Part shown: one piece after another, positions 6,001 through 21,679 of the stretch
Layout: each line of letters opens with the position of its first letter
Numbering within the stretch: position 1 is the stretch's first letter
Assembly (NCBI GenBank): GCA_016932415.1
Contig: JAFGCX010000036.1
Span: forward strand, 1 to 64,000
Source: Candidatus Krumholzibacteriota bacterium
GTDB lineage: Bacteria > Krumholzibacteriota > Krumholzibacteriia > Krumholzibacteriales > Krumholzibacteriaceae
Direction: 5' to 3'
DNA length: 64,000 bases
Notes under the pieces: model-generated
The model's input: only the letters and a program-made list of their open reading frames with translations
Told to the model about the DNA's origin: nothing
Databases searched by the model: none
Translations under genes and position numbers: made by a program

Positions 6001-9000
6001 GGGACAGGGATGACTCTCGAAATGACGGTAAACAGCGAAGATCCTGACCATTCAACGTTGATCCTTGACAGAAGTTCGACCTACGCGTGGATCGGTGACA
6101 CAGATGGAGATACCCTGAGGACATGGCTGTCGAGTATTTCTTCAGATCAGTTGACCGGCGCCGCTTCGACTGTTTTGAGATTCAACGCTGCCACTGTCGA
6201 TACGTCGCTTGCCAGGCAGAGTTATATCGTCGGGCTGCATATTGAAGGAGAGGAAAACGGTAACTATTATTCGACTGTTCTTAATTCCGCGCCTGACATG
6301 CTGACTATTGAGGAGGCGCCTCAACTGAGCATAATCAGCATCGAGTCGCCACAGAGCGTCACAAGGGCTCTTCAACCTTTATGGGAAGTCAGGATGATAC
6401 TCCACAATACCGGTGAAGCTTCAGTGGAGATCGATCCGGCGAATACGGAGATAACTTTCGAAATAGCGGGAAAGGGAGATCGGACAGGAGAATATACGAT
6501 AGTGCCTCCGGCAGCTCTTCAATCGGCTGGAAATCTCATTCTCGCCGGCAATCAGGTTGATACGCTCGTCTTCGATATAGAGGTGACTGGAAACACGACG
6601 GGGACCGCGCTGATAAATGGTCTTGTCACGGCGACCGATATCAACAGCAGCGAGACAATATCTGATGATACTTATACCGGTGGAGGGACTTATATTCTGA
6701 TTCAGGATCCCGCCCTGCCGGTGATCGTGGAAAGCGTCGCAAGTCGGGAGACAGTGACTTCAGGACAAACGACAGAATGGTTTCTGACTGTACACGTACA
6801 GAACCAGGGTGAAGCGGCCTTTACACTTGATCCTGACAGTACTTATATCTACAGCGACTATGCTCTCGATGTTCCGGCAGGACCTGTCGAATTCAGCGAG
6901 GGCGGATCGGTTCTCCCCGGCGGAGGATCGGGTCACCTCGTCTTCGGGATTACTCCCACGCCCGCCATTCCCACCGGTCATGACCTTATCATCGAGGTCA
7001 ATCTTGGGACTGTCGAAAACAACAGGGACGCATACCTCTATTATAATACCGAAGAGATGTCTTCGGGCGGTTCAAGCGTGCGGATACAGTCGCAACCCGA
7101 ACTTCATATAGTCTCGCTGGTCAACCAGTCGCAGCGTGCTCCATGGGTCAATCATGGACAACAGTATTCCATATCTGTTGAGATAACGAATACCGGAGAA
7201 GCGAAAGCTGAAGAAATAAACCTGGTTTTAACCAGCGACGGAAGTTCAGTAGCCGACGATTCTCCAGTAACGATTGGCTCACTCGATGGATTCGATTCGA
7301 CAATCGACACCTTCCACGTGACGGCAGCCCCACTTTCAGATACCGAGATATTTTCCGCGGCTTTCCAGTCAGCGGTAGACGCCAATTCACGGCAGGATGA
7401 CCTGGTGATCTATTCGGCAGCCGAAGATGACCAGGAGACAGTCAATATCCAGCTTCCAGGAGATATCTCGATCATTTCACTCTCTCCTTCACAGGATGAT
7501 GTAAATGCCGGGCAGACTGTGGACTGGTCTGTAAAAGTCATACTGGCCAATATCGGTGAGGGCCCCGTCAAATTGAAGAATCCTTCAGCCACCGACCTTC
7601 AGTTCAGGTTGGACTCTGACCTTCTTGACGATTACCTTGTTATCCCACCGGGGCAATTTGCCTCGGGAGCTGTCGATATGGTCATGGATGGAGGAGAGAC
7701 TGATTCGCTGGTATATATAATCTCATCTACCGGTATAGATACGGGAAGCGTCGAGATAAGTTCGATTGTCGAATATACGGATGAAAATGACCTTGAGATC
7801 CCGGCTGTCACCAGGATTGCGACGGAGATGTTCCATGTCAAGGAACCTTCCGGGCTGAGAATAATATCGATTACAAGCGACGCGCCGAATAACAGCATGT
7901 TTCCCAATACCTCGATAGTGAATATAGATCAATCTTTCCAGATAACGGTAGTCGTGGAAAATACGGGAGGAGATGACCTGAGAGAAGTCGAGGTCTCTCT
8001 GCAGAGCAACGGGCCGGCGGTCACCGGTATTATTCAGGAGGCTTCAGAACTGGCGACGGCCTCGCAGGGGGAATTCATATTCAGTGTCACATCTCCCGCT
8101 GCCGGAGTCGAGATAATCACTGCCGCGATAACAAGGGCCGTATCTGTTAATACAGGCAAAGAGATTCCTCCGATACAGGCGATCGAATCGATAGAGAATA
8201 TCCAGGTCCAGGTAGCCGCCGAGTTGTACATCGATACGTATATTTCCAGCCCAGTCGGAGCTGAGGATGATACCCTGTCGACAGACCAGGTATTCATGGT
8301 GACATCTAGCGTATCCAACCTTGGCGAGGCTGCTATAGACGCTTCGGGTCAGATCACGCTGACTCTTCCACCAGGGTATGTTCTCGTCTACGCCGAGACT
8401 GATTCGATTACAAGGTCTTTTCACGCGGAAGAGGAGATCCACTGGACGCTTCAGGCCCCTTCCGAGGCCTCGCAGGATGTGGCAGTTTTATCCTGCCTGA
8501 TCAGCAGGGTTCCGCGTGATATCAATCTACAGCTTTATGCCGGTATAGACAGGGGAGAAGCAGAACTTGACCTTGTCACCGAGGATGCTGCGAATATTTC
8601 CGGATGCGCGATGCAGATCATTTCTCCCTTGGGGGCGATAGACGCGACTGTCTCGACTCTCCAGGACTTTACCATATCGTCGAGGATGACTCCGTCGCTG
8701 AACACCGGCGATGCCTGGGTGGAACTGTCCGTTCCAGCCGGTTGCGAGATCGATGGCAATAATAGAATAGACCTTGGTGACTGCGATGGCAGCGAAAAGA
8801 ATATACAATGGATTATTTCTACTTCGGAGACCTGGGGAAGCGGATTTGAATTCGGGTTGAGTTCCGGCGGAATAGATCTGAATTCGCAAGAGGAGTTTGA
8901 AGGATGCGCTGGGCAATTGAATATGACGATCGTTGAACGTACCGATATCGGGCTGGAAGCCTTTATATCCGGACCGCCCGAGGCGCTTGAAGGGAATATG

Positions 9001-10131
9001 TCAGTCAATCTTCCTTTTACTGTCGAGGCGAATGTCACCAACAGGGGGACTGCCGATCTGGACACCCTGGGAGCAAGACTGGAGATCGTTCTTCCTTCAG
9101 GCTCGGATTATCGCCTGGACGGAGGCAGCGAAACATTTAAAAAGAGTTTTTATCCGGGACAACCGGTAGAGTGGCACCTCAGGGCTCCTATGAGCGCGAC
9201 TTCGCCAAGAAATATTATTATTAGATTCGACCACCCTGGAAGTGATGAGAACAGTGGAGAGACAGTCGTTCCGTTTATCCCGGAAGTATCGATACCGGTG
9301 ACAACAGAAGCTGGAACCGTTTCGATGCTAAATATCTCGGGCGTTGACACAATACCGCCTTTTGTAGTACCCCAGGGAGCCAGGGATGTCCCTGTCCTGA
9401 ATATCCTCTGCAGAAACAACTCCGCCTACACGATCGGGCTTGATACGTTGTATGTAAGTGTAAAAGACAGAAAGGGAGATTTACGCGATCCCGTATCCGA
9501 CGCAGTTACTTCGATCTCAGTGATCGCGGGAGAGACTCCTTATACACGGATCCCTGATTCAACGAATCCTGTCCCTGTCATCATAGGGCACGATTTTACA
9601 ATAGAACCGGGAAATGAAGATACTCTCCTCGTGAGTCTAGATATCGCTCGGAATGCCCCGGTCGGTCAGCTCAGGATCGATATAGCCAGGAGTGATGACG
9701 TCATATTCTCGATAGGAGAGATCGATCCTATTCCAATTCATGTCGTCTGGGGTGGAGGCTCTGGCAGCGAAGATATAGGGGGACATTTCGAATGCGGACC
9801 TTTGACTGTCATGGATGCTGATTTCTCGGAGTATGTCCACAACTACCCGAATCCTTTCCGTGCCGGATCCGAGACGACCAGGATAACATATTACCTTGTA
9901 AACGATTCCAATGTAAGCATCAAGATATTCGACCTTATGGGTATCCTTGTCTGGAAGAAGGATATATCGGCTGGTGACCCGGGAGGCACCGGTTCAGAGG
10001 GCGGCACGCTGTGGGAAGAAGAATGGGATGGACGGAACGGACGGGGAGAGCTGGTGCGCAACGGTGTGTATATCTGCAAGATCCAGGCTGGATCTGAATC
10101 AGCGATATTCAAGATCGCCGTGGCAAAATAG
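1..10131 (+). CDS. Giant secreted Ig-like/CARDB-like repeat protein with FlgD-type C-terminal sorting domain (5' end outside window)
   Basis: The frame is open from base 1; the first in-window start codon is a GTG at 7, so the true start probably lies upstream. At least 3374 residues. The first ~1120 residues are invasin-like (Big_1) Ig modules, recognisable by recurring phrases such as DQYDN, DRYGN and DTWGN followed by GT-type strands. From ~1130 to ~3080 about 15 CARDB-like modules follow, each opening with a hydrophobic strand and an N-x-G-E/G-A core (for example NSGEAPV, NTGEASV, NNGEASV). The last ~100 residues hold NYPNPF, IKIFDLMG and WDGRNGRGE, typical of FlgD-like Ig/type IX secretion type A sorting domains. 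Inferred role: very long surface adhesin or stalk protein exported across the outer membrane. It ends 9 bases before a PorV-family gene, which suits a secretion link. No catalytic domain was seen. Confidence 0.85.
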   Translation, partial: DGVATGSVRSIVAETKTLKAKIDGSYVVDEIEIIFKSGEPDYFTIDHDGNAVAGVGDNVTIEIFDLFNNTVNDFSGIIRVYTDSPEPADMITWGIGSGAGSIISEDRDTLSYQYSVADNGVVTLVMTDNRAETIRFTTEYGSVISESDEQLNVIHGAADEIFVISGDNQRSVVNNPVPAPLVVGVEDQWGNRVQGETVTFIVISGLGEIDTDISTGGLQSTSVTGSLGTATCDRWILGTASGYDSDEAAASISSGSVTTAYFSATTDHDQLSSVVLTPLSSGVTVNSSTIVTATLKDQYDNLVTDENITIYIKDTPDGGLSADLSNPNATDELGPVIRSGKTDSTGTITVVYNAPAAAGRSDLLDANNAVISAENIDDVIYTTVASGATKLIVTDISDPTVEAGESFSFIIRAVDSNNNLDPSNSSHVVFSPEAGGSLIFSLSDFGSEITEADLVNGSVTIFGRGSHKGTWQTDITASAPVLTATDFDIAIIANHNVDHYLFSAPSNAVAGNDFAIQLQAKDIYGNLVTSASYDIDLRAVQPIDTTADAGGSLSVISGSIINGLYYENNISYQVAEQIRIEVTDDSTSVAGVTDPITIGHAPAYQIVELGGDSTGVAAGDSVTLRAEVFDRYGNNVVGESVSFSILGGSGSLAATQRFTRSDGTTSVRYRTGTIAGVNTVRAAVLDGTPEGLETQVFEITTVPASAISYVILDVIGTSFTAGIPFACEAAAYDQYDNLIISDNSTRIIPVAESPSIDFIPDTLTLSAGEVVFAAIDTAMGSNRIALESLSGTTLAPFGSSFTVTHGDAYIITEISGDTTGVISGDTTEVSIRVGDTWGNPVNEEIVHFSLISDLGGVPSLDDDTGSAHDGLVITNPDGTARCRVITDQNAGENIVSATILDGEPASREKVEFSIVTIAGNISRYVLSTVEDSYLAGEHFNVEIVAYDLNDNIAYGDFTTVVQLGSNATAVWDDNPVTLSNGSVITGVTETLAGNLQLTAETDGGGALSSSEVIEILPELPAGIIGIASVIPDTITANGRSRSSITTSQIRDLYGNIVSQRTRITVAPSLGAVASDDIDPAEPGVQRETTVNGIISAFVESSVLPGNSLIGFESVEGNATGSATVVFAPPPVITFGGYISPVNIVPGEDISFRILVNNTSVTGLYIDAGSSVSIPDGSGNTFYAELGSPVFMEGSSTDTLFFDTSMLPSGFAGGRFTPRISIDGTDIYGAQYSADFNAGTNSVIVSSIEISQITAQKTVLSRGDTASVNIYVRNNGGDLVIIEDIQLDFSNGYYSVISPTSSLNDTILAGLEKNIPLDVRVLPNSPLGADTIDARVHASSGGNDFYDYSAGDGRFVWLIQSAATIAYQGGSLMPSKVSRGQTQQYSLDLGNSGEAPVILDADNTIFSFTDGLIVFSSQLTDESALPGVSVTNLEFIPGTIPLAMAPGRYPVTLSLIGTENGAPFDTVFTLSDSVDVTEPAQVGYIASSIIPITVSKNSYVSFEAGLRNTGGSSVIADPYNSYIAFNDGVTTYYALLDRDRGFNIDTGDNTLYFKSIIVSEAMITGSYTPLIHVEGTENGIPFSDNIIVTDQVSVQEPSQLSINSIVILPTDRITADQTGPRVARVKIINNGEASVRLDSMSLRLFAGKDPVIDEYILNPVDFFPGMEVLAGGVTDSFQVMITDNPSNQMTVGTVVVEATLYGTDLNSLEELVATTEYGGKGIFLVQTPAVPFISGIIPSVSEATILQTRDWTLDLVVKNSGQSDFDLDLDPAKTFLLFSTSGDFNVVYPSQLNGGGTVLEGGAADTLRYLIDQTGSIQGVCQIDAALSGMEINSLTLLGPILNGPAISETVEIQTPGQLDIESITPTQDPVTVEQENPWSIDCSIHNSGGASVTLDLADFDSTGVIIPGSTGFIFEYPDQLTGGRLKLVGGATGMLRYTVANTGDISAGRRLLAGSIVGTEDNSGQRIYDYTESTGDSVTFQNRPVPIYAVSSLFPVTVSSGTGMTLEMTVNSEDPDHSTLILDRSSTYAWIGDTDGDTLRTWLSSISSDQLTGAASTVLRFNAATVDTSLARQSYIVGLHIEGEENGNYYSTVLNSAPDMLTIEEAPQLSIISIESPQSVTRALQPLWEVRMILHNTGEASVEIDPANTEITFEIAGKGDRTGEYTIVPPAALQSAGNLILAGNQVDTLVFDIEVTGNTTGTALINGLVTATDINSSETISDDTYTGGGTYILIQDPALPVIVESVASRETVTSGQTTEWFLTVHVQNQGEAAFTLDPDSTYIYSDYALDVPAGPVEFSEGGSVLPGGGSGHLVFGITPTPAIPTGHDLIIEVNLGTVENNRDAYLYYNTEEMSSGGSSVRIQSQPELHIVSLVNQSQRAPWVNHGQQYSISVEITNTGEAKAEEINLVLTSDGSSVADDSPVTIGSLDGFDSTIDTFHVTAAPLSDTEIFSAAFQSAVDANSRQDDLVIYSAAEDDQETVNIQLPGDISIISLSPSQDDVNAGQTVDWSVKVILANIGEGPVKLKNPSATDLQFRLDSDLLDDYLVIPPGQFASGAVDMVMDGGETDSLVYIISSTGIDTGSVEISSIVEYTDENDLEIPAVTRIATEMFHVKEPSGLRIISITSDAPNNSMFPNTSIVNIDQSFQITVVVENTGGDDLREVEVSLQSNGPAVTGIIQEASELATASQGEFIFSVTSPAAGVEIITAAITRAVSVNTGKEIPPIQAIESIENIQVQVAAELYIDTYISSPVGAEDDTLSTDQVFMVTSSVSNLGEAAIDASGQITLTLPPGYVLVYAETDSITRSFHAEEEIHWTLQAPSEASQDVAVLSCLISRVPRDINLQLYAGIDRGEAELDLVTEDAANISGCAMQIISPLGAIDATVSTLQDFTISSRMTPSLNTGDAWVELSVPAGCEIDGNNRIDLGDCDGSEKNIQWIISTSETWGSGFEFGLSSGGIDLNSQEEFEGCAGQLNMTIVERTDIGLEAFISGPPEALEGNMSVNLPFTVEANVTNRGTADLDTLGARLEIVLPSGSDYRLDGGSETFKKSFYPGQPVEWHLRAPMSATSPRNIIIRFDHPGSDENSGETVVPFIPEVSIPVTTEAGTVSMLNISGVDTIPPFVVPQGARDVPVLNILCRNNSAYTIGLDTLYVSVKDRKGDLRDPVSDAVTSISVIAGETPYTRIPDSTNPVPVIIGHDFTIEPGNEDTLLVSLDIARNAPVGQLRIDIARSDDVIFSIGEIDPIPIHVVWGGGSGSEDIGGHFECGPLTVMDADFSEYVHNYPNPFRAGSETTRITYYLVNDSNVSIKIFDLMGILVWKKDISAGDPGGTGSEGGTLWEEEWDGRNGRGELVRNGVYICKIQAGSESAIFKIAVAK
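3724..9330 (+). repeat. Array of about 15 CARDB-like protein modules inside the giant surface protein
   Basis: Roughly 15 degenerate modules of 110-150 residues repeat in frame. Each starts with a strand of the form (L/I)xIxSI, then a gap, then xVxNxGEA or a close variant, a loop with LDP or LDx, and a GG-D-TL turn such as GGVTDS or GGETDSL. Similarity is at protein level only; the DNA copies have diverged, so the array is old rather than a recent expansion. One unit near 6000-6250 lacks the NxGEA core and reads NSEDPDHS instead. Confidence 0.65.
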
Positions 10132-10140
10132 GATTAGTAG

Positions 10141-12030
10141 ATGAAAAAGAGATTTAAAATATTGCTTCTGTCATTTTTCCTGATCTATCCGTCAGGTCTC
10201 ATGGGCCAGGATGGAGAAGGAGGGACCCGTTCGATATTTACTCTTGGAGCCGGGTCGCGGGCGATCGCGATGGGAGGGGCTTTCGCGGCGATCGGAGACG
10301 ATCCATCAGTGCTTTTCTATAATCCCGCCGCGTTGAAACTGAATCCATATCCAGCAGTTCTGGTCAACCATATACAACTGTTTTCCGGGTTCAGCGACGC
10401 GACATATGATTTCATCGGGCTGGTATATCCGACAATGACGGTCGGATCGTTCGGCGTTGGATTTATGACGGCCGGGACCGGAGGGATCAGGCAGTTCGAC
10501 AGTTACAGTGTCGAATATGACGAGATATCGTACAGGGAGAGCCAGGCAATATTGTCTTACGCGTTCGATCTTCCATGGGAGTACGCGGGAAAGATCACCG
10601 TTGGATCATCCGTAAAAATCCTTAACCAGCGTATCGGCGATTTTTCAGATACCGGGACGGGGATGGATCTGGGCATCCTGTACAGGCATGATTTTTTGCG
10701 CGGGCTGATCATAGGATGCAACCTTCAGGATATTATCGGAGCGGAGACAAAACTTGTCGCTGTCACCGAGAAAGTCGACAGGACTCTCGCTTTTGGAGCC
10801 GGCTATTCCTACCTTTTCAAAAGTGGTTCATCGCTGACCCTCTCGGCACAGGTCGATATACCCGAGCGCGCGGATAAAGACATAAGATTCGGAGCTGAGT
10901 ACGGGTATAAAAAAATAGTCTTTTTCAGGGCAGGGTTTGATTCCGAATCGATAACCGCTGGAGTCGGATTCGGATGGGGACGGTATGAAGGTGACTACGG
11001 GTATTTCTCCCGCGAAGAAGCGGGATCTTCCCATCCGTTCTCGGTGGTCGCCAGGCTCGGGAAATCAGTTGAAGAAAAATACAGGCTTGAGAAGGAGAGG
11101 AAAAGAGCGGAGGAGGAAGCTTATATCAGTGAAGTATTTGCCGCAAGAGTATCAGCTCACATAGATACGGCACGCGCACATATAAGCGATGGGAAGCGGG
11201 AGATGGCTCTCGATGAACTCAAAATTGCCCTGGAATATGATCCTGGAAATAAGGATGCGGAGTCGATGCTTGATGCTCTGAAACAGGAGATACTCGACAT
11301 CCAGTCGGAAAGGACCAGGAACGCCGAAAAATCACTTCTTATAAACCAGCATTTCGGGCTTGGATTGAAATATTACAGTAATAATGAATATATTCTGGCC
11401 AGGGCTGAGTGGCTGACTCTTCTGGAACTTGATCCCGCGAATATTCAGGCCGGAGAATATCTTGAGCGAACGGAGGAAAAGCTTGCCGACCAGGTAAGAC
11501 AACATATTGACAAGGCCCTCTCATACGAAAAAGAAGGCGGGCTTTCCGACGCGCTCAATGAATGGAATATAGTAAGAATGATAGACCCGGAGAATGAAGA
11601 GGCCCTGGCAGGGGCCGAAAGGGTCAACAGGTTGATGGAACAGATAGATATCGATTACAAGGCCAAGAGCCTCAGGTTGGAGACGATCGATCATTTTGAA
11701 AACGCGCTGAAAGCTTTCAGCGAGGGAAGATATGAAGAAGCTGCCGATCTGTTGAGAAGAGTGATAGGACAGCAGCCGGATCATCAGGAAGCAAAGAATC
11801 TTCTTATGAGGATAAACAGGAAGATGACCCCGCTGACAAGTGAACAGAAAGAAATGATCCGACAGTATTATATAGAGGGAATGAAGCATTTTACCCTGGG
11901 AGATTTTTCAGCCTCCATTGAAGCCTGGCAGAAGATACTTGAAATAGATCCGGATAATGAGAGCGTACAAAAGAATATCGAAGAAGCTCAGCAGCGGTTG
12001 AAGAAGCTGGGATCGTCGGAGGAAGATTAA
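10141..12030 (+). CDS. PorV/PorQ-family outer-membrane barrel fused to C-terminal TPR repeats
   Basis: 629 residues. A signal peptide (MKKRFKILLLSFFLIYPSG...) should be cut near residue 23. Residues ~24-320 match the PorV/PorQ (UPF0164) family: LGAGSRAIAMGGAFAAIGDDPSVLFYNPAAL at the start of the barrel is its hallmark, followed by repeated amphipathic strands (GVGFMTAG, GMDLGILY, FGAGYSY). Residues ~340-625 are helical, with TPR signatures such as ALEYDPGNKDAESML, LLELDPANIQAGEYL and ILEIDPDNESVQKNI. In Bacteroidetes PorV is the type IX shuttle that hands substrates to the attachment complex; the family also includes generic outer-membrane barrels. The TPR tail would sit in the periplasm. It starts 9 bases after the giant sorting-domain protein and ends directly at the TTG start of the next gene, so co-transcription is likely. 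Confidence 0.85.
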   Translation: MKKRFKILLLSFFLIYPSGLMGQDGEGGTRSIFTLGAGSRAIAMGGAFAAIGDDPSVLFYNPAALKLNPYPAVLVNHIQLFSGFSDATYDFIGLVYPTMTVGSFGVGFMTAGTGGIRQFDSYSVEYDEISYRESQAILSYAFDLPWEYAGKITVGSSVKILNQRIGDFSDTGTGMDLGILYRHDFLRGLIIGCNLQDIIGAETKLVAVTEKVDRTLAFGAGYSYLFKSGSSLTLSAQVDIPERADKDIRFGAEYGYKKIVFFRAGFDSESITAGVGFGWGRYEGDYGYFSREEAGSSHPFSVVARLGKSVEEKYRLEKERKRAEEEAYISEVFAARVSAHIDTARAHISDGKREMALDELKIALEYDPGNKDAESMLDALKQEILDIQSERTRNAEKSLLINQHFGLGLKYYSNNEYILARAEWLTLLELDPANIQAGEYLERTEEKLADQVRQHIDKALSYEKEGGLSDALNEWNIVRMIDPENEEALAGAERVNRLMEQIDIDYKAKSLRLETIDHFENALKAFSEGRYEEAADLLRRVIGQQPDHQEAKNLLMRINRKMTPLTSEQKEMIRQYYIEGMKHFTLGDFSASIEAWQKILEIDPDNESVQKNIEEAQQRLKKLGSSEED

Positions 12031-15000
12031 TTGAAGGAAGACCGGCTTACTGGTAAGGAGATATTCCGTCTTGATATTCCCGCCGAAGAGAACAATCTCG
12101 GTGAGGTAAGGGATTTCATCGCCGATATCTGCGCCCGCGCCGGTTTCTCGAAGCGAGAGACGAACAATACAAAACTCGCGATGGATGAGGCATGTACCAA
12201 CATAATAAAACACGCCTATAAAGACCGCGCGGGTAATATTAAGATAGAAGTCGAAGCTGAACCAGGCAGCCTTGAAATAACCGTCTTTGATCGGGGCAAG
12301 GCGTTTGAGTGGTCGAAGATAAAGGATCCCGATCTTGAAAGATACGTTGAGATAGGTAAAAAGGGCGGTCTGGGCGTATACCTGATGAACCGTCTCATGG
12401 ACGGACTCGACTATAAATCCTCGGAAAACGGAAACAGCCTTTTTATGACGAAAAGGTCTGCTCACGCGGTTTCTCCCGCAAGTCAACGCCTCTTCCATTC
12501 AGTCAAGCCAAAATGGACTTCGACACTGAGGTTCAAATTCGCTATGAGAGCGACTTTCGGCCTGCTCGGCCTTGTTATCTTCCTTTGGACGATACTCTTT
12601 ATCAACCAGAGCCGCGAGATCGAGGATCAAAGAGCGCAGGCATGGGTGAATATGGGCAGTTTCGCCAAGACACTGGAGTCGAAGAGTGAAAACGCGATGG
12701 TCATAGATGATCTTTTTCATCCGGAATACAGGGAGATCAACGATTTTATCCAGGACAGAATAATCAGTATTCCATCGGTACAGTACGTCAGAATCGTTAA
12801 TAATGACGGCATAGTAGTCGCGTCGAGCAGCCTCGAGGAATTTCAGGAGAAATTCGATCTGACGCCTGATATGGAAGGATTGCCCGTGGAAGGCCGATGG
12901 ATGAGGAGCGAGAGTGCAGGATCTGAAGACGTGGAAGAGTTTTATTATCCGGTGACTATTCATGAGACGGAGAATGACAAAATAGTCAAGCTTGGGTTCG
13001 TTATCATGGGAGTGTCCAGAGCAATCATCAACAGCGAGATATATGATCCAAGACCACGTACCACCATGGTGCTTTTCGGGATATTCGCCATCGGCCTCGC
13101 GCTGATATACCTGTTGATATCAGTTCTCGTAAAACCGATACAGGCGCTTACCGACGGGGTCAGAGCGATCGGTGAGGGCGCGATGAATGAAGGCATCCAC
13201 ATCGACGGACCGGATGAAATAGGAGCGATAGCAGAGGCGTTTAACGAGATAACGGCAAAATTCAGAGAGGCGCAGGAAAGTGTCGTCGAACAGGAACGTA
13301 TGCAGAAGGAAATGCAGGTCGCCCAGGAGATCCAGCATTCTCTCCTTCCAGGCAAGGTTCCCGAGATCAAGGGTTACGATATCGCTAGCCTCTACAGGGC
13401 GGCTAAGGAGGTAGGGGGCGATTATTATGATTTCGTAAAAGTGGGTGAAGATTCACTCGGAGTAGTCGTTGCCGATGTCTCCGGAAAAGGTGTCCCGGGA
13501 TCTCTTGTCATGACGATGATCAGGACAGCCCTGAGAATGGAAGCACGTGGAAATTACTCGGCTGCCGAAGTTATGTCGAGGATGAATGCTTTCGTGACTG
13601 AAGATATGAAAAAGGGTATGTTTGTCACGATTTTTTACGTGATCCTTGATTCCAAGAACAGGATAATAAGTTATGCCAGTGCCGGGCATAACCCGATGAT
13701 CCTCTTCAGGGCCGAGACCGATGAGACTTTCTTTCTGAATCCACGCGGGTTTCCGGTGGGGATCAGTCTTCCTGATGATACTCTTTTCAGGCGGTCGATC
13801 GATGTCGAGAAGATCAAGCTCAAGAAAGACGATATGCTTGTCATCTACACCGACGGAGTCACCGAAGCGATGAACGAGAACAGGGAACAGTATGGAGAGG
13901 ACAGGCTGATCAGGCTCATAAAATCGAATGGCAGGTCGTCACCGGATGATTTCATAGAGCGCCTTAACGAGGATATCAGAGTATTTACCGGAGAATATCC
14001 ACAGAACGATGATATTACCGTCGTCGCGGTCAAGGAAAAGATGATGGCAGATGACGTGCTGATGGGTATCCGGAAACAACTTCTTGATCTGGTAGATATC
14101 GAGGGTTTGACGGTAGCCGAAGCGTGTTCGAGAATGAAAGTCTCACCTTCGACTTATTACAGATACAGGAAACGCCTTGCTGAACTGGGAGAGCGCGGCC
14201 TGCAGAACAAGACTTTGCGAAAAGAACATGAGATAAATCGCGTCAGCATCGAACAGCGCAAGGAGATGCTGGATATAGTCAGAAATAATCCGAATTTTGG
14301 AGCGAAAAGGATAGCCGATGAATTCAACATCGGAAAGCCCCAAAAAATCTGGTTGAACTCGTCGCTTGTTTATGACGAGTTGAAAAGAATGCGGCTCAAT
14401 ACTTATGAAAAACGGCTCGAATACCTGAGGCGAAACAGAGTGATATCAGAAGAAGAGTACCAGGAAAGACTTGCTTCTCCGGCAGCAAGAGCCGGGCAGG
14501 CCAGGAAATCTTATGATGAAGCTGCTGTCGTCGAGACATTCGAACCTGTGGAACCCGGCGGGGACGCAGAACCGGCCACTTTCGAAGAAGTATCCCCGCT
14601 AGGCGATGAAGAAACAACCGTCAGCATGATGGCAGGGACGCCGAAAGACAGATCCGGCAAGGATCTTTCAGTCAGTGAAAGCGGTAATAAGGACCGGGTC
14701 GATGTTGAAAGGATACTGACCGATAATATACCGGAAAGCGAAGAGGACGCGGTTGTCAGTATAAGCGCCGAAGCGGCGGGAGATGATATTGCTGTAATCA
14801 GAGTGACGGGGCATCTGGATTCTTCTTCTGCCACTGATCTTGAGAATATCCTGGAGAGCATCTATGAGGAGGGCGTAACCAAGATAATCGTCAACCTTGA
14901 GAAAGTCTCATATATCAGCAGTGGGGGATGGGGGATATTTACTGGAAGAGTGAAAACACTGAGAGAAGGAAAGGGTGATGTAGTGCTGACAAGCATGTCA

Positions 15001-16395
15001 CCCGAGGTCTTCGATATATACGAACTTCTCGGATTTCAGGATATAATAATGCATTTCCAGACTGTCGGAGAAGCTGTCGGTTTTATCTCCCTTCCTTTCG
15101 AAAAAAGGCAGAAGGATCTTGAGGAGATCACGAACAGGCGTAAAGAAGAAATGACCCTTGAGGAGAGAGTAACCGTATCCTCCGGCGGCGGGTCATCGGA
15201 ACTTGAAAGCTCACCATGGACACCACTCGCTATAGAGGCCGGTACTGTAGGGCAGAATGGCGAAATAACTGTTCTAAACCTTGCAGGAGTCATAGATACG
15301 GTCAGTTGCATGAGGCTCAGAGATGTGCTTGAGGAACTTCTCAAAAAAGGTCCAGCGAAGTTCGTAATCGATATGTCGAAGGTGGAATACGTGAGCAGTG
15401 CCGGATGGGGTGTGTTCGCGTCGAGGATAGATGAGATGAGAAGCAGGGGCGGAGATATCAAGATCTTCGGTATGGACCCTGAAGTCGACAGTATTTTCCA
15501 CCTTCTGGGGTTTGACGTGATCATAAGATCGTTCAGCATCTTCTCCGAGGCGATAGATGATTTTAGCGAGGATGAGAAAAGCAGTTCCATCGAGTCAGCG
15601 GCCTCTTCAGCCGGCAATGCGCATGAACAGCCAGCTGAAAATGGAACCGGAAAAGACAGGTCAGTCCTCCTGGCCGATCTTACGTTGAATGTTTCGCGCC
15701 TGGTGGCTGATGAAGCCAGATCCGTGATCCTGACGATCAATGGAGCGGTCGACGCGGCCACGACCGAGCTGTTTGAGCGTTATCTCGAGGAATCGTTGCT
15801 TGACGATCCCCTTTACATGGTCATCGATATGTCAGGTCTGATATATATGAGCAGCGCCGGATGGGGTACGATCATAAAATATATGCAGAAACTTGGATCA
15901 GGATCCGGTAAACTCGTCCTCTCCGGGATGAGCAGTACGATTTTCAAGATATTCCAGGATCTCGGATTCGAACCTCTGATCCCCTATTACATGACTTCCG
16001 AACAGGCTCTTGAATCATTAAGCGCTCCATCTGTACTGGAACATCAGAAAAATTTGCTAACCAATGGTGCAGGGGAGTCAGATAAGGGAGATCCGCTCCA
16101 GCGGGAATCAATCAAGGATGCCGGTTCCGAGAATGAGACCGAAGGATCATCTGAAGGCTACAGCAGACAGGACGCGGTGGAACAGGCCGTTCCAAGAGTC
16201 GGACGAACACAACTTGAACCGATCCTTCCGAAAATTGAAGATGATCTTCCGGAGATAGAACCGGTCCTGGACCTGGGACGGGTGGAGGGGGAAAAAGAGA
16301 CGGATGACAAAAAGATAAGGGATCTTGGATGGTCGGTTTATGGAGAAAGACTAAAGAAACATAACAGAAAAAAGAGCAAAAAGGCTGATAAATGA
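12031..16395 (+). CDS. Single-chain partner-switch protein: RsbW-like kinase, sensor, HAMP, SpoIIE phosphatase, HTH and three STAS domains
   Basis: 1454 residues from a TTG that abuts the previous stop, with GGAGGAAGA just upstream. Domains in order: HATPase_c anti-sigma-kinase-like, ~10-142 (N-box E53/N57, D87-R-G, GGLGVYL at 112-118); TM helix ~170-192; extracytoplasmic sensor ~193-345; TM helix ~346-367; HAMP and coiled coil ~368-435; SpoIIE/RsbU PP2C phosphatase ~440-668 with metal-binding Asp residues in GGDYYD (D464), ADVSGKG (D482), YTDGV (D608) and NDDITV (D660/D661); transposase-type HTH ~680-795; STAS domains ~905-1020, ~1070-1175 and ~1215-1330; acidic then Lys-rich tail. Each STAS has an SSxGWG motif whose second Ser (S964, S1123, S1275) aligns with the phospho-Ser of SpoIIAA. 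Known roles: HATPase phosphorylates STAS, PP2C reverses it. Inferred: a membrane-sensed switch working largely in cis. The final ATGA overlaps parA. Confidence 0.9.
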   Translation: MKEDRLTGKEIFRLDIPAEENNLGEVRDFIADICARAGFSKRETNNTKLAMDEACTNIIKHAYKDRAGNIKIEVEAEPGSLEITVFDRGKAFEWSKIKDPDLERYVEIGKKGGLGVYLMNRLMDGLDYKSSENGNSLFMTKRSAHAVSPASQRLFHSVKPKWTSTLRFKFAMRATFGLLGLVIFLWTILFINQSREIEDQRAQAWVNMGSFAKTLESKSENAMVIDDLFHPEYREINDFIQDRIISIPSVQYVRIVNNDGIVVASSSLEEFQEKFDLTPDMEGLPVEGRWMRSESAGSEDVEEFYYPVTIHETENDKIVKLGFVIMGVSRAIINSEIYDPRPRTTMVLFGIFAIGLALIYLLISVLVKPIQALTDGVRAIGEGAMNEGIHIDGPDEIGAIAEAFNEITAKFREAQESVVEQERMQKEMQVAQEIQHSLLPGKVPEIKGYDIASLYRAAKEVGGDYYDFVKVGEDSLGVVVADVSGKGVPGSLVMTMIRTALRMEARGNYSAAEVMSRMNAFVTEDMKKGMFVTIFYVILDSKNRIISYASAGHNPMILFRAETDETFFLNPRGFPVGISLPDDTLFRRSIDVEKIKLKKDDMLVIYTDGVTEAMNENREQYGEDRLIRLIKSNGRSSPDDFIERLNEDIRVFTGEYPQNDDITVVAVKEKMMADDVLMGIRKQLLDLVDIEGLTVAEACSRMKVSPSTYYRYRKRLAELGERGLQNKTLRKEHEINRVSIEQRKEMLDIVRNNPNFGAKRIADEFNIGKPQKIWLNSSLVYDELKRMRLNTYEKRLEYLRRNRVISEEEYQERLASPAARAGQARKSYDEAAVVETFEPVEPGGDAEPATFEEVSPLGDEETTVSMMAGTPKDRSGKDLSVSESGNKDRVDVERILTDNIPESEEDAVVSISAEAAGDDIAVIRVTGHLDSSSATDLENILESIYEEGVTKIIVNLEKVSYISSGGWGIFTGRVKTLREGKGDVVLTSMSPEVFDIYELLGFQDIIMHFQTVGEAVGFISLPFEKRQKDLEEITNRRKEEMTLEERVTVSSGGGSSELESSPWTPLAIEAGTVGQNGEITVLNLAGVIDTVSCMRLRDVLEELLKKGPAKFVIDMSKVEYVSSAGWGVFASRIDEMRSRGGDIKIFGMDPEVDSIFHLLGFDVIIRSFSIFSEAIDDFSEDEKSSSIESAASSAGNAHEQPAENGTGKDRSVLLADLTLNVSRLVADEARSVILTINGAVDAATTELFERYLEESLLDDPLYMVIDMSGLIYMSSAGWGTIIKYMQKLGSGSGKLVLSGMSSTIFKIFQDLGFEPLIPYYMTSEQALESLSAPSVLEHQKNLLTNGAGESDKGDPLQRESIKDAGSENETEGSSEGYSRQDAVEQAVPRVGRTQLEPILPKIEDDLPEIEPVLDLGRVEGEKETDDKKIRDLGWSVYGERLKKHNRKKSKKADK

Positions 16396-17144
16396 TGAAA
16401 AAGTTCGCGATCATGACAATGAAAGGCGGCACAGGAAAGACGACTACAGCTGTCAGCGTAGCGCACGGATTATCCCTGACCGGGCGAAGAGTGCTCCTTG
16501 TCGATTGCGATCCACAGAGGAATTCAACGGTAACCTTTGGTGTCGAAAGCGATCGGGGGCTTGATACCCTGCTGACGACTGGAGATGTCGAGATCCTTCA
16601 AGTAAGGGAAAAATTCTTTCTTATCGATTCGGGAGGGCGAAAACTTTTCGAGGTCGAATTGAAGCTGGGGTTGCAGCAGGGCCGCGAGGACAGGATGCGT
16701 GACGCGTTGAAAAATCTGAAAGGTTGCGATTACGTGTTTTGCGACTGCCCTCCGTCTATGAACCTGATAAACATCAATGTGGTGAGGTATTGCGACGAGA
16801 TAATTGTTCCGGTCGCGATGGACTATCTGTCGAAGATAGGAGCGCAACAGACTATGAAAGTGATCGACGAGATCAAATGGATGACTGGAAGTACTTCAAT
16901 AGGCTATCATATACTTCCGACTTTTTTTGATTCGAGGACAAAGATATCGGGAGAGGTCCTGGATCAGATAAGGGAAGAATTCAAAGGACATCTCTTCAAT
17001 ACGGTCATCAGGGTCAATACAGCTCTACGCGAGGCTCCTGGAAATAACAAGACGATATATGAACATGCTCCTCTGTCGAGAGGCGCGTTTGATTATTATA
17101 AACTGACAGAAGAGATACTTACCATGTATGAAAACGGGAATTGA
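16392..17144 (+). CDS. ParA/MinD-family P-loop ATPase (orphan, no ParB nearby)
   Basis: 250 residues. The deviant Walker A motif KGGTGKTTT lies at 11-19 with the signature lysine (K11), VDCDPQRNST is the A-prime region and DCPPSMNLI the Walker B region. Length and motifs fit the short Soj/ParA group, which forms ATP-dependent dimers that bind DNA or membrane and position cargo. The start overlaps the stop of the partner-switch gene as ATGA; a second in-frame ATG follows immediately. No parB and no parS-like palindrome were seen nearby, so chromosome partition is unlikely to be its job. By context it may position the STAS/phosphatase protein or a surface apparatus; that is inference. Confidence 0.85.
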   Translation: MMKKFAIMTMKGGTGKTTTAVSVAHGLSLTGRRVLLVDCDPQRNSTVTFGVESDRGLDTLLTTGDVEILQVREKFFLIDSGGRKLFEVELKLGLQQGREDRMRDALKNLKGCDYVFCDCPPSMNLININVVRYCDEIIVPVAMDYLSKIGAQQTMKVIDEIKWMTGSTSIGYHILPTFFDSRTKISGEVLDQIREEFKGHLFNTVIRVNTALREAPGNNKTIYEHAPLSRGAFDYYKLTEEILTMYENGN

Positions 17145-17191: not shown

Positions 17192-18331
17192 ATGAAAAGT
17201 CGGGGGTTTGTGGTGCAGAGTCTTGAGTTGAGAGAAGAACTCAGTTTTGGGGGAAGTAAATACTTTCTTCAGACCAGCTATCTTTACCAGCAGAATCAGA
17301 TATTAAGTTCTTTTTTCCGTGATGGATCTGTATTTGACACTATAGAACACAACTTCGATGAGCAACCGGATGACGAAGCACTGAAAGAACTTACAAAGAA
17401 TCTTCATAATCATAACAAGAGAAGGTTTCAATTTATCTTTACCGCGAGGGACAAGATCAAGAATTCTCATGATCCCGCCGCTCATATGAGAATGGCGAGA
17501 GCCCTGTTGATGAGAAATCTGAATAATGAAGCTATAGCCGAAGCCAAGATGGCTCTCAAGAATGGAGCGAAAGATTCAGGGCCGTACATCGTTCTGGCAT
17601 CTTCCTGGTACGGTATCGGTGACAGCAAAAAGGCATTTGAAGCGGTCAAAAAGGGTATTGATCTGAGCCCTGACTATCCTGATCTTCATAACCTTTTGGG
17701 ATTGATATATTTAAAAGAAAATAAATGCAGGCTCGCGATCGAATGTTTCAAGAGAGCGATAGGCTTGAATATCTACTACGGCGAACCATATTTGAATATG
17801 GTAAAAGCTTACCTGCTCAATGGGATCATCAAGGAAGATTTTGAACTGGCCCGCGATGTCAAGGAGAAGTTCGATTTCAATATAAACAGGGCGATTCAGC
17901 TTAATTCCTATCTCAATACGAGCAGGATCGATGATATTCGTAAGCTATTCAAAGAAGAGGAGTTTGAAGAAGCACTCGATCTTCTGGAAAAGCTGTCCGA
18001 AGGAACATCCGGGTCATATGCCGAATCAGTGATGCTCGATCTGTACCTTGTCCTTCTTCAGAGTGGAGAGGATGTATGCGAAGAAGATATAGACCATTAT
18101 CAGGGAAAAATAGAGGAACTGATAGATAAAAACCCGACGTTTGCCGATGCTTATAATTCCCTCGGAATCCTGTACGCGGCAAAGTGCAAATTGCTTATGG
18201 ATAAGGCATACGATTCTTTCAGCAAAGCACTTGAAATAAATACGGATTACAGGAAAGCCCGTAAGAATCTTAGACTTACTGAAAACGACAAGCATGGGAT
18301 ATTTATTCTTTTGAGAGCTTTGTTGGACTGA
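17192..18331 (+). CDS. TPR-repeat cytoplasmic protein of the STAS/ParA locus
   Basis: 379 residues from the ATG; a GTG at 17213 preceded by GGGGG is a credible alternative start. There is no signal peptide or TM helix. The N-terminal ~90 residues form a small domain (LSFGGSKYFLQTSY, SSFFRDGSVFDT) that I cannot name. From ~95 on, TPR helices follow, with hallmark segments such as ISLGIDLSPDYPDLHNLLGLIY-like repeats (AVKKGIDLSPDYPDL, FKRAIGLNIYYGEPY, FSKALEINTDYRKA). TPR arrays bind protein partners. It sits between parA and two STAS genes on the same strand with gaps under 50 bases, so it probably acts as adaptor for the same complex. No enzymatic motif was found. Confidence 0.75.
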   Translation: MKSRGFVVQSLELREELSFGGSKYFLQTSYLYQQNQILSSFFRDGSVFDTIEHNFDEQPDDEALKELTKNLHNHNKRRFQFIFTARDKIKNSHDPAAHMRMARALLMRNLNNEAIAEAKMALKNGAKDSGPYIVLASSWYGIGDSKKAFEAVKKGIDLSPDYPDLHNLLGLIYLKENKCRLAIECFKRAIGLNIYYGEPYLNMVKAYLLNGIIKEDFELARDVKEKFDFNINRAIQLNSYLNTSRIDDIRKLFKEEEFEEALDLLEKLSEGTSGSYAESVMLDLYLVLLQSGEDVCEEDIDHYQGKIEELIDKNPTFADAYNSLGILYAAKCKLLMDKAYDSFSKALEINTDYRKARKNLRLTENDKHGIFILLRALLD

Positions 18332-18377: not shown

Positions 18378-18746
18378 ATGGACAAACTTCAACTCGATGA
18401 ACTACGTGTGGAAGATGTAGTCGTACTTAAACTCAGCGGATTGGTCGATTCAGGGACTTCGCAGTTGCTGGAAGACAGATTCAACAATCTCATTTCCAAT
18501 GGTAATGTGAAGATCGTCGTCGATCTATCTGATGTAGACTATATAAGTTCGGCAGGGTGGGGAATATTCGTCGGCGAGATCAAAGGCGTAAGGAGAGACA
18601 GTGGAGATATCAGGCTGGCAGGGATGCGACCTGATGTCCGGGAAGTATTTGATCTGCTTGAATTCAATGCTTTACTGACACCATATGGAAACAGGGAAGA
18701 GGCCCTGGTGTCATTCAATATTCAGGAAAACAAGGAATTGACTTGA
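18378..18746 (+). CDS. Stand-alone STAS-domain protein (anti-sigma-factor antagonist family)
   Basis: 122 residues, one STAS domain over nearly the whole length. The core reads VVDLSDVDYISSAGWGIF; S58 aligns with phospho-Ser58 of Bacillus SpoIIAA. It keeps the GxVD turn (GLVDSGTS) and the C-terminal GDIRLAGMRPDVREVFDLLEF helix. The SSAGWG motif is nearly identical to the three STAS domains fused to the phosphatase upstream, which suggests that the kinase and phosphatase domains of that protein act on it in trans. AAGGAAG precedes the ATG. Known family role: the unphosphorylated form binds and sequesters an RsbW-type kinase. No sigma factor gene lies in the window. Confidence 0.88.
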   Translation: MDKLQLDELRVEDVVVLKLSGLVDSGTSQLLEDRFNNLISNGNVKIVVDLSDVDYISSAGWGIFVGEIKGVRRDSGDIRLAGMRPDVREVFDLLEFNALLTPYGNREEALVSFNIQENKELT

Positions 18747-18774: not shown

Positions 18775-19155
18775 ATGAACGACATCAGTATCTCATTTTC
18801 GAGATCCGAGATCAATCCTGACATCTCGATCATTTCTGCCAGGGGTTACGTAGACACGACTACTTCAGCCGAATTGGAAGAAAGCCTGAAACGTCTTTTG
18901 CGCAAAGGGCGATATGATATAGTAATCGACCTGAAGGAAGTCAACTATATCAGTTCAGCTGGATGGGGTATCTTCATCAGCGAGATCAAGGAGATCCGTG
19001 AAAACGGTGGTGATCTGAAACTGGCGGCGATGACTGGTGATGTCTATGAAGTGTTTGAACTTCTGGAATTCCAGACGATTCTGGAAAGCTACGATTCAGT
19101 CGAAGAAGCAGTTCTGAGTTATGGAAACTCCGGGATCATGTCTACTGATAACTGA
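18775..19155 (+). CDS. Second stand-alone STAS-domain protein, paralogue of its neighbour
   Basis: 126 residues, a single STAS domain with VIDLKEVNYISSAGWGIF (predicted phospho-acceptor S61) and GDLKLAAMTGDVYEVFELLEF. It is clearly a tandem duplicate of the preceding gene, 28 bases downstream, with GGGAGCG before its ATG. Two free STAS proteins plus three fused STAS domains could give several binding partners competing for one kinase. It is the last gene of the block; a 243-base gap with a new promoter follows. Confidence 0.88.
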   Translation: MNDISISFSRSEINPDISIISARGYVDTTTSAELEESLKRLLRKGRYDIVIDLKEVNYISSAGWGIFISEIKEIRENGGDLKLAAMTGDVYEVFELLEFQTILESYDSVEEAVLSYGNSGIMSTDN

Positions 19156-19398: not shown

Positions 19399-21567
19399 AT
19401 GTTCGGTTCGAGGTATCGATTGATCATTGATCTTGGAGTCGCTGAACTCGCTCTGATCCTAGTGCTGAGCGTCCTGACGATATGGCTGTACCGGGAGACC
19501 TTGCCCCCGACAGGAAGGGCGAAACGGACTGCACTCATCCTGCTCAGGATTGCCGTTTTTATTCTCATGGTATTTTTTCTCGCAGATCCGGCGCTTGTCA
19601 TTAAAGTAAATGAGGAGAGGGACCCGGTTATTCCCCTGCTGATCGATATTTCATCCAGTATGGGAATAGTGGACGATGGCGGAAGCAGGAGGATGGATTC
19701 AGCGATCAGGGATATTTCCCGCATAAAAGAAAGTCTTGGTAAGGCGAAGATCGATATTATCCCTTTCTCGACCGATATCTACGGAGCGGTAGCTGATATC
19801 GACAGTATTCCCCCAGCGGTAATGGAAGGCACCGATATTCTGTACGCGCTCGGCAGGGTCACTGACCGGTATGTATCGGAGAATCTTTCAGCGGTGATCA
19901 TCCTGAGTGACGGCAGGAGTACAAGGGGTGTGAGGTCGCCAAGCGGGAGGATACCGGTAAAAGTCTATACAGTAGGTTATGGTGATACAATAGAAGGAGC
20001 CGATGCCGGTATAGAAAGGATCGATATCGACAGAAACCTCTATATCGGCACTGCCGTAGAGGCTGAAGTTACTGTCAGGGTCGATGGAATCAGGGATAAG
20101 ACCCTGAGTATCGGACTTCTTGCCGGAGACAGGACAATCGATAGTGTGGAGATAAATTCGCCTGACAGAGACGGTAGATTCAAAACAACTCTCCGGTTCA
20201 CGCCTGAAAGGGAAGGAGAGGAAGAACTTTCAGTGAAGATCGATCAGGTCGAAGGAGAGGTCATCACGGAAAATAATATCGAAACGGTACGAGTCACTGT
20301 CTTTAAGGACAGGATCGGGATCCTCCTTATAGATCAATTCCCCGACTGGAACATGACTTTTCTTAAAAGGCTTTTCGATCGGTCGCAAAGATATTCTATA
20401 GATATCGTTACGGCCAGTGGTGGGATGGAATATCGATTATTGAACAGTGATGAAGAATGGAGTCTTTCCCAGGCTCTGGAGGATCCGGGAAAGTACGAGA
20501 TGATCATAGTAGGTGATGACAGGATACTGTTCGATTCAGGACCGAACACAGAAATTCTCTGGAAGTACGTTGAGAACGGAGGCGCCGTACTGTTTACAGG
20601 ATCAGAAGATTCTCCGATCGCGGGAAAAAGGGGGCAGAAATGGCTCGATGAACTGCTCCCCGTGATTCAGCGCGAGCAGGTAATGATCAAATTTAATGAT
20701 TATTACGTTACCGCGGCGCCATTACCGCATAATCTACCGATTGCAATATCGATGGCGACATCGGGTCTTGCTGAGAGACTTCCTCCCCTTCTGGCTGCTT
20801 TTTCCGGTTTTGAGGCCAAGGCAGGTGCCGAAGTGCCTCTTCTGCTCGATGATGGCAGCGAAAATATTCCGATGATCGCAATGCACCGTTTCGGTGATGG
20901 TGTCGCGGCGGTAATCCTGGGATTTCCAATATGGAGATGGAAACTTTCAGGGGAGGAAGGTTCAAGGGCGTATGATTCCTTTTTTATCGGAGTGACCGAT
21001 TACCTGGTCGAGGGGATCGACCTGCCAGTGATCTCTCTGGATTCTGAAAGAGGCGTCTATCTTTCGGGGGAAAGAGTTGAAATGACAGTTCTGGCCAGGA
21101 AAGGGACGTTGCCGGAAGGTATAAAAGGTGAGATATATAATGTCGACTCTGAAAGAGAATCAATGGTAAGGACGTTCAATTTTATCCAGGCTGATCGTTC
21201 TGAAAAGATATATAGAGCACTGCTTGACCCGCTTTCTCCGGGAAAATACAGGATAGTCGCTTCAGGCCAGGGTCAATCAGGAGAAAAACTGTCAGCAGCC
21301 GCCAGTATTGCCGTCAGGCAACGATCGGTCGAGTTTCTCAGGAGATCGGGGGACTATCTTTTTCTTAGCCAGATAGCCGCTGGATCAGGAGGAAGATCTG
21401 TTGACCGGGGGGAGATCGATCAGCTTGGCTTGCTGATCGACACGAAAAAAGAAGCTGTATCGCGGGAAAACACGACATCCCTGCGGAGCTTATACCACTT
21501 CTTTCTGATTATCGTGACGCTCTTAGCTGTCGAATGGAGCCTTAGGAAGTTCTGGGGGCTGGTCTGA
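19399..21567 (+). CDS. Membrane-anchored VWA-domain protein with glutamine-amidotransferase-like domain
   Basis: 722 residues. Two N-terminal TM helices (~14-31 and ~45-62) precede a von Willebrand A domain at ~76-240 with an intact MIDAS start, D83-I-S85-S-S87, and a later SDGRSTRG segment. Residues ~240-305 look like a beta-sandwich (CARDB-like). Residues ~310-520 carry an amidotransferase-like Rossmann fold (ILLIDQFPDWN, YEMIIVGDD, ENGGAVLFTG) without an obvious catalytic Cys-His-Glu triad. A C-terminal TM helix lies at ~698-716. Such VWA/GATase-like proteins are widespread in FCB and Planctomycetes genomes, usually beside MoxR/BatA genes; those are absent here. Likely extracytoplasmic metal-dependent protein binding; substrate unknown. 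Confidence 0.75.
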   Translation: MFGSRYRLIIDLGVAELALILVLSVLTIWLYRETLPPTGRAKRTALILLRIAVFILMVFFLADPALVIKVNEERDPVIPLLIDISSSMGIVDDGGSRRMDSAIRDISRIKESLGKAKIDIIPFSTDIYGAVADIDSIPPAVMEGTDILYALGRVTDRYVSENLSAVIILSDGRSTRGVRSPSGRIPVKVYTVGYGDTIEGADAGIERIDIDRNLYIGTAVEAEVTVRVDGIRDKTLSIGLLAGDRTIDSVEINSPDRDGRFKTTLRFTPEREGEEELSVKIDQVEGEVITENNIETVRVTVFKDRIGILLIDQFPDWNMTFLKRLFDRSQRYSIDIVTASGGMEYRLLNSDEEWSLSQALEDPGKYEMIIVGDDRILFDSGPNTEILWKYVENGGAVLFTGSEDSPIAGKRGQKWLDELLPVIQREQVMIKFNDYYVTAAPLPHNLPIAISMATSGLAERLPPLLAAFSGFEAKAGAEVPLLLDDGSENIPMIAMHRFGDGVAAVILGFPIWRWKLSGEEGSRAYDSFFIGVTDYLVEGIDLPVISLDSERGVYLSGERVEMTVLARKGTLPEGIKGEIYNVDSERESMVRTFNFIQADRSEKIYRALLDPLSPGKYRIVASGQGQSGEKLSAAASIAVRQRSVEFLRRSGDYLFLSQIAAGSGGRSVDRGEIDQLGLLIDTKKEAVSRENTTSLRSLYHFFLIIVTLLAVEWSLRKFWGLV

Positions 21568-21648: not shown

Positions 21649-21679
21649 TATCGGCGGTGTGAGGAGGACGACGAAGAGG

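Follow-up and report, generated by a model that had tools for sequence, protein, structure and literature searches.

Results

Switch gene and its enzymatic domains

We analysed a window of 64,000 nucleotides (positions 1 to 64,000 of contig JAFGCX010000036.1, forward strand, assembly GCA_016932415.1) from a Candidatus Krumholzibacteriota bacterium, in which a single gene encodes a membrane protein that combines the kinase, phosphatase, and antagonist domain families of a bacterial partner switch. We call its product the switch protein. Its domains run in the order kinase, transmembrane helix, sCache, transmembrane helix, HAMP, SpoIIE, helix-turn-helix (HTH), and three STAS domains.

12031..16395, + strand: switch protein, 1454 aa, TTG start, reading frame without stop
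12076..12453, + strand: RsbW/SpoIIAB-type kinase domain (residues 16-141; HATPase_c_2, E 1.3e-28)
12556..12603, + strand: first transmembrane helix (about residues 176-191; from the sequence, by eye within model helix 166-224)
12652..13047, + strand: putative extracytoplasmic single Cache sensor (about residues 208-339; sub-threshold Pfam match and AlphaFold2 model)
13060..13128, + strand: second transmembrane helix (about residues 344-366; from the sequence and a model helix)
13114..13251, + strand: HAMP domain (residues 362-407; Pfam, above cut-off)
13447..14034, + strand: SpoIIE/RsbU PP2C phosphatase (residues 473-668 by Pfam; SpoIIE, E 1.9e-49)
14071..14421, + strand: bipartite HTH of IS481-transposase type (residues 681-797; NF033577, Pfam HTH models, AlphaFold2)
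14782..15075, + strand: STAS 1, acceptor S964 at 14920-14922 (Pfam, alignment)
15253..15537, + strand: STAS 2, acceptor S1123 at 15397-15399 (Pfam, alignment)
15724..16008, + strand: STAS 3, acceptor S1275 at 15853-15855 (Pfam, alignment)

A sequence-only reading of the window had claimed a multi-domain open reading frame here and had proposed profile searches of its kinase and STAS domains. Both its coordinates and its length of 1454 aa were borne out, and matches to HATPase_c_2, HAMP, SpoIIE, and all three STAS domains exceeded the curated Pfam cut-offs. The stop codon of the upstream gene directly precedes the TTG start. A wrongly assigned start was ruled out by a GGAGG 8 nt before the TTG (12018-12022) and by the agreeing starts of close relatives, which lie at the equivalent site and use TTG, GTG, or ATG. 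Chance, or an artefact of assembly or gene fusion, was also ruled out by the identical architecture in about 20 other metagenome-assembled genomes (MAGs), one of which is a single-contig chromosome (L040). In one relative (G036) the gene seemed to lie in two separate pieces, each of which runs out in a stretch of N, indicating a scaffolding gap. Another scaffold (G042) likewise holds 600 N, and the kinase and its neighbours were not found there.

Relatives were collected by a pattern-based scan; all come from MAGs, taxon labels are given as deposited, and conservation was counted over 41 deduplicated relatives. The kinase domain contains an N box (E53/N57), a G1 box (D87/G89), and a G2 box (G112/G113/G115), and all seven residues were kept in 41/41 relatives. 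Its closest sequence match in the PDB was RsbW (6m36, 3.8e-17). We therefore classify it, by its HATPase_c_2 fold and these boxes, as a predicted serine kinase of the RsbW/SpoIIAB type.

The predicted sensor matched Pfam sCache_3_2 at 23.1 bits, below the cut-off. Residues 150-425, modelled with AlphaFold2 (pLDDT 82), formed a single Cache domain flanked by two long helices, and the closest sensors in the PDB were WalK and CitA (TMt about 0.7). The helical linker that joins the HAMP domain to the phosphatase is conserved, with nearly invariant residues. The phosphatase carries metal-binding aspartates at D464, D482, D608, D660, and D661; among relatives with the region present, D464 and D482 were kept in 40/40 and the other three in 37/37. 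Its closest PDB sequence match was Rv1364c (3ke6, 3.5e-16), and a model of SiaA, itself a membrane HAMP-PP2C sensor phosphatase, also matched (1.2e-21). Fold and metal-binding aspartates together identify a probable PPM phosphatase of the SpoIIE/RsbU type.

Fused and free STAS domains

The STAS family of Pfam matched the switch protein threefold (2.5e-56), and the three domains also matched a SpoIIAA model. SpoIIAA was the closest PDB sequence match of STAS 1, with S964 aligned to Ser58, the SpoIIAA phospho-site. Among relatives carrying STAS domains, the acceptor serine was kept in 19/19 for S964, 19/19 for S1123, and 18/19 for S1275, counts that omit one non-STAS row present in the alignment (L052). 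STAS 3 evolves fastest of the three. Two further STAS genes lie downstream of the switch gene:

18378..18746, + strand: free STAS protein a, acceptor motif YISSAGWG (Pfam 8.8e-19)
18775..19155, + strand: free STAS protein b, acceptor motif YISSAGWG (Pfam 2e-20)

With these included, the operon accounts for five STAS matches out of eleven genome-wide. By their fold and conserved acceptor serine, the fused domains and both free proteins are putative antagonists of the RsbV/SpoIIAA type. The HATPase boxes, PP2C aspartates, and STAS serines had been described as intact from the window alone; they are, with E53, N57, D608, and S964/S1123/S1275 the very residues named, and they are conserved across relatives as well. 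Because kinase, phosphatase, and acceptor residues are all conserved, the pattern argues for active enzymes and for acceptors that are in use.

We built a STAS tree on 99 columns, in which the deep forks are weak. STAS 2 and STAS 3 were each set apart by a supported branch, STAS 1 formed a cluster that was not resolved, and free STAS b grouped with the Eisenbacteria free STAS that lies beside a STAS-less form of the switch (87/90, not starred). The fused domains thus appear to have been inherited as distinct units, and the simplest reading is a single gain of the triple STAS tail followed by long separate maintenance.

IS481-type helix-turn-helix

The sequence-only reading had overlooked the HTH at residues 681-797. 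This segment matched positions 2-114 of the 284 in the IS481 transposase model NF033577 (52.6 bits, 4.7e-14), and Pfam HTH_29, HTH_23, and HTH_28 scored above their cut-offs at residues 680-743. The IS481 match stops at residue 797, and no DDE integrase core was found among the Pfam matches. An AlphaFold2 model (pLDDT 88.5) was all helical, with two helical units. The top Foldseek matches were the DNA-binding domains of Pax5, Pax6, CAST/TnsB, Hsmar1, and Tc3 (E 0.07-0.5); because none fell below E 0.001, the sequence models carry most of the weight in this assignment. The second half of this HTH was also present at the C-termini of free STAS proteins at four Eisenbacteria- or Latescibacterota-labelled loci (L045, L047, L048, L063; E about 1e-8 to 1e-9).

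Distribution of the family

Krumholzibacteriota yielded relatives, as did contigs labelled Eisenbacteria, Latescibacterota, FCPU426, Calditrichota, Goldbacteria, Spirochaetia, and Methylomirabilis. Across 58 scanned genomes, the fused triple-STAS form occurred in families f1, f2, f7, and f8 of the class; one f6 genome carried a STAS-less form, and f3, f4, and f5 had only phosphatase-region matches among the matches listed. Outside the Krumholzibacteriota clade the protein stops after the HTH, leaving kinase, sensor, phosphatase, and HTH without STAS. A Calditrichota relative (L052, 6088-10089) has, with no fused STAS, a long acidic linker and a C-terminal TPR-like region. Judged by this distribution, the triple-STAS tail is an addition of the Krumholzibacteriota clade. 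One free STAS gene adjoins the STAS-less form in Eisenbacteria and FCPU426. These arrangements suggest that the enzyme worked in trans at first.

Operon and type IX secretion context

The genes around the switch gene, in addition to the free STAS genes, are as follows.

7..10131, + strand: giant surface protein with immunoglobulin-like repeats, at least 3374 aa, at the contig start (Big_1, CARDB, type IX secretion tail)
10141..12030, + strand: outer-membrane barrel of the PorV/PorQ family with C-terminal TPRs (NF033709, TPR Pfam)
16392..17144, + strand: ParA/BcsQ-type ATPase, overlapping the switch gene (Pfam AAA_31, 6.2e-33)
17192..18331, + strand: TPR protein, conserved in the operon (Pfam)
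19399..21567, + strand: membrane protein with a DxSxS motif, conserved in the operon (VWA-like by eye, no family match)

The giant protein ends in a type A sorting domain of the type IX secretion system (T9SS; TIGR04183, 26.6 bits, cut-off 23), and the barrel gene matched NF033709 at 92.6 bits (cut-off 90). SprA is encoded in the genome (471 bits, cut-off 200). The upstream PorV/PorQ gene, the sorting domain, and SprA together place the switch in a type IX secretion context, which had also been overlooked in the sequence-only reading. The barrel/TPR gene was immediately upstream of the switch at every locus with sequence there, except on scaffolds broken by runs of N, and the linkage extended to Krumholzibacteriota and every other taxon label listed above. 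PorV is known as a T9SS shuttle (PMC8564354, PMC12618676).

In phmmer searches with the window's ParA, every one of the roughly 20 distinct triple-STAS loci that extend past the switch had this gene next to it on the downstream side, against 0 of about 17 STAS-less loci. An ATPase of this kind beside the triple-STAS form could position the complex. The C-terminal motif DLGWxxYGxRL was considered as a ParA-binding tail and dropped, since it was present in the window and one relative only. Past the operon, the next gene (21659-23362) encodes a protein with a pair of lamin-tail (LTD) domains, whose C-terminus is weakly FlgD-Ig-like.

The source genome has a second PorV/TPR-linked switch (L098, G000:C17:43000-52000), with the end of a sorting-tail gene followed by PorV/TPR (710 aa), HAMP-PP2C (519 aa), and a kinase-STAS fusion (363 aa). 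Its context appears alike, with the switch parts divided among genes differently. At another locus (L099, G000:C14:1-9000), PP2C (756 aa), RsbW-type kinase (146 aa), and STAS (117 aa) are separate genes in a row.

Discussion

Proposed mechanism and alternatives

We lean, by a little, toward a membrane-bound partner-switch receptor with periplasmic input and both fused and free STAS substrates. The Cache domain would read a periplasmic input, probably from or about the adjoining PorV-type barrel/TPR protein and type IX cargo, and the signal would pass through the HAMP domain and helical linker to switch the SpoIIE-type phosphatase on or off. Control of related phosphatases through a coiled-coil linker, HAMP included, has been published (PMC12143880), and by analogy control by Cache, HAMP, and linker is the most likely arrangement here. 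The N-terminal RsbW-type kinase would be the standing activity that opposes this regulated phosphatase, phosphorylating the conserved STAS serines. The three fused STAS domains may be tethered substrates or docking sites, and the diffusible share of the output would fall to the two free STAS proteins. The IS481-type HTH may give the complex a contact with DNA or a partner, perhaps governed by the phosphorylation state of the STAS domains. Candidate outputs are the free STAS proteins, contact of the HTH with DNA, or a target held by the kinase.

Several observations weigh against this reading. No target protein was identified for the switch, and a contact between PorV and Cache is suggested by gene order only. 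The flanking sequence covered at Goldbacteria-type, Spirochaetia, and Calditrichota loci contained no STAS, and the HTH region is shorter and diverged in Goldbacteria-type relatives and diverged in Spirochaetia; because of this, neither STAS linkage nor DNA binding is universal in the family. The sequence-only reading had seen a whole partner switch in one polypeptide. Kinase, phosphatase, and three acceptor-bearing STAS domains with conserved residues do stand in one chain, but the phrase overstates the case: other-phylum relatives manage without fused STAS, and the switch is not closed in one polypeptide, since it is followed by two free STAS genes whose acceptor motifs are intact. The sensor-gated intramolecular phospho-relay also proposed in that reading, with an output graded from 0 to 3 phosphates, is at this stage a hypothesis.

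A different arrangement, which we consider unlikely while taking it seriously, is a trans-acting membrane kinase/phosphatase resembling SypE. Its true substrates would be the free STAS proteins, with the fused STAS serving as a stressosome-like scaffold for docking or local concentration and not as signal outputs. The single free STAS genes adjoining the Eisenbacteria and FCPU426 relatives would suit it, as would the place of free STAS b in the tree, and the substrate of SypE is itself a separate STAS protein (PMC8256260). A pure scaffold, however, would not need acceptor serines, and those of all three fused domains are conserved.

It is improbable that the protein is instead a membrane-tethered transcription factor, in which the HTH binds a promoter and the kinase, phosphatase, and STAS domains regulate that binding in cis only. 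The HTH scores to Pfam and IS481 transposases, the paired-type fold suggested by the top Foldseek matches, and the lack of a SigB/F/G-type sigma above the family cut-off all speak for it; but the HTH has diverged in the Goldbacteria-type relatives, its second half alone on free STAS proteins at four loci also fits protein-protein contact, and membrane-tethered DNA binding would itself be a prediction. Very unlikely is a classical switch in which an alternative sigma factor is held by the kinase domain until STAS dephosphorylation frees it: the kinase is RsbW/SpoIIAB-like and Rv1364c regulates SigF (PMC9138534), but the operon genes examined include no sigma gene, and a sigma target is made less likely because no SigB/F/G sigma (TIGR02980) passes the cut-off in the source genome (95% complete), despite three other, longer sigma-70-type matches.

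Returning to the membrane-bound receptor, we also considered a bolder and rather doubtful extension of it, in which one membrane protein holds the complete phosphorylation switch together with its DNA-binding output. A periplasmic sensor monitoring PorV-type surface export would set the phosphorylation of the STAS domains, this would control DNA contact through the domesticated IS481-type domain, and ParA would position the complex. If true, this would be a partner switch controlling type IX export with a DNA-binding output built in. To our knowledge, neither has been described.

Relation to known systems

The nearest precedent is Rv1364c of M. tuberculosis, a single chain with PAS, PP2C, kinase, and STAS domains (PMC9138534; PMC12143880); an older Rv1364c paper cited in PMC9138534 bears the title 'Loss of kinase activity'. 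Both proteins thus unite a sensor, a PP2C phosphatase, an RsbW-type kinase, and STAS. Rv1364c differs in its cytoplasmic PAS, its order PAS-PP2C-kinase-STAS in place of kinase-Cache-HAMP-PP2C-HTH-STASx3, its one STAS, and its lack of an HTH and a transmembrane Cache. The sequence-only reading knew of no described protein with this order; that survives for the order and the number of STAS domains, while Rv1364c already provides a single-chain switch. SypE, from the SypE/SypA system of Vibrio fischeri, likewise has an N-terminal serine kinase, a regulatory domain, and a C-terminal PP2C (PMC3610818, PMC8256260), with kinase and phosphatase placed around a receiver domain (PMC3610818). It acts on a STAS protein, as proposed for the switch, but its regulator is a soluble receiver domain and not a membrane Cache-HAMP, its STAS is in trans only, and it has no HTH.

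The Bacillus RsbU/RsbW/RsbV and SpoIIE/SpoIIAB/SpoIIAA systems share the three domain families with their active-site and acceptor residues; they differ in being separate proteins with a known sigma target, and in having no HTH and no T9SS-type context. SiaA acts in a partner-switch-like pathway (PMC7647112). In the SiaA/SiaB/SiaC system of Pseudomonas aeruginosa a membrane HAMP-PP2C sensor phosphatase is found as here, but the kinase is a separate protein and there is neither a fused STAS nor an HTH. As with PorV-type T9SS shuttles (PMC12618676, PMC8564354), the upstream gene is of the PorV/PorQ family and lies beside sorting-domain cargo; here, however, the barrel comes with TPRs and is linked to a receptor of the partner-switch kind. 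The switch shares the N-terminal bipartite HTH of IS481 transposases but not their DDE core.

All three activities in one chain (Rv1364c) and the fusion of kinase and phosphatase (SypE) were therefore already known. New are the domain order, the predicted membrane Cache input, the IS481-type HTH, the three maintained STAS domains, and the conserved PorV/TPR partner. Limited searches of the open-licence literature yielded no description of this switch family and no papers on three, tandem, or multiple STAS domains, which does not prove the architecture undescribed.

Judged from its sequence and gene order, the switch is a real, conserved variant of partner switching that we infer to be linked to type IX-type surface export. 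Because it shares a conserved operon with a type IX shuttle protein, it may connect gene control with the assembly of the surface. Through the barrel-receptor pair, partner switching would be joined to type IX-type surface export in several uncultured phyla, and switches without a SigB-type target would gain a concrete, testable role. The family also brings in a DNA-binding domain of transposase type that may be a built-in output, and its three separately maintained STAS acceptors may offer a natural way to test whether signalling is graded or docked.

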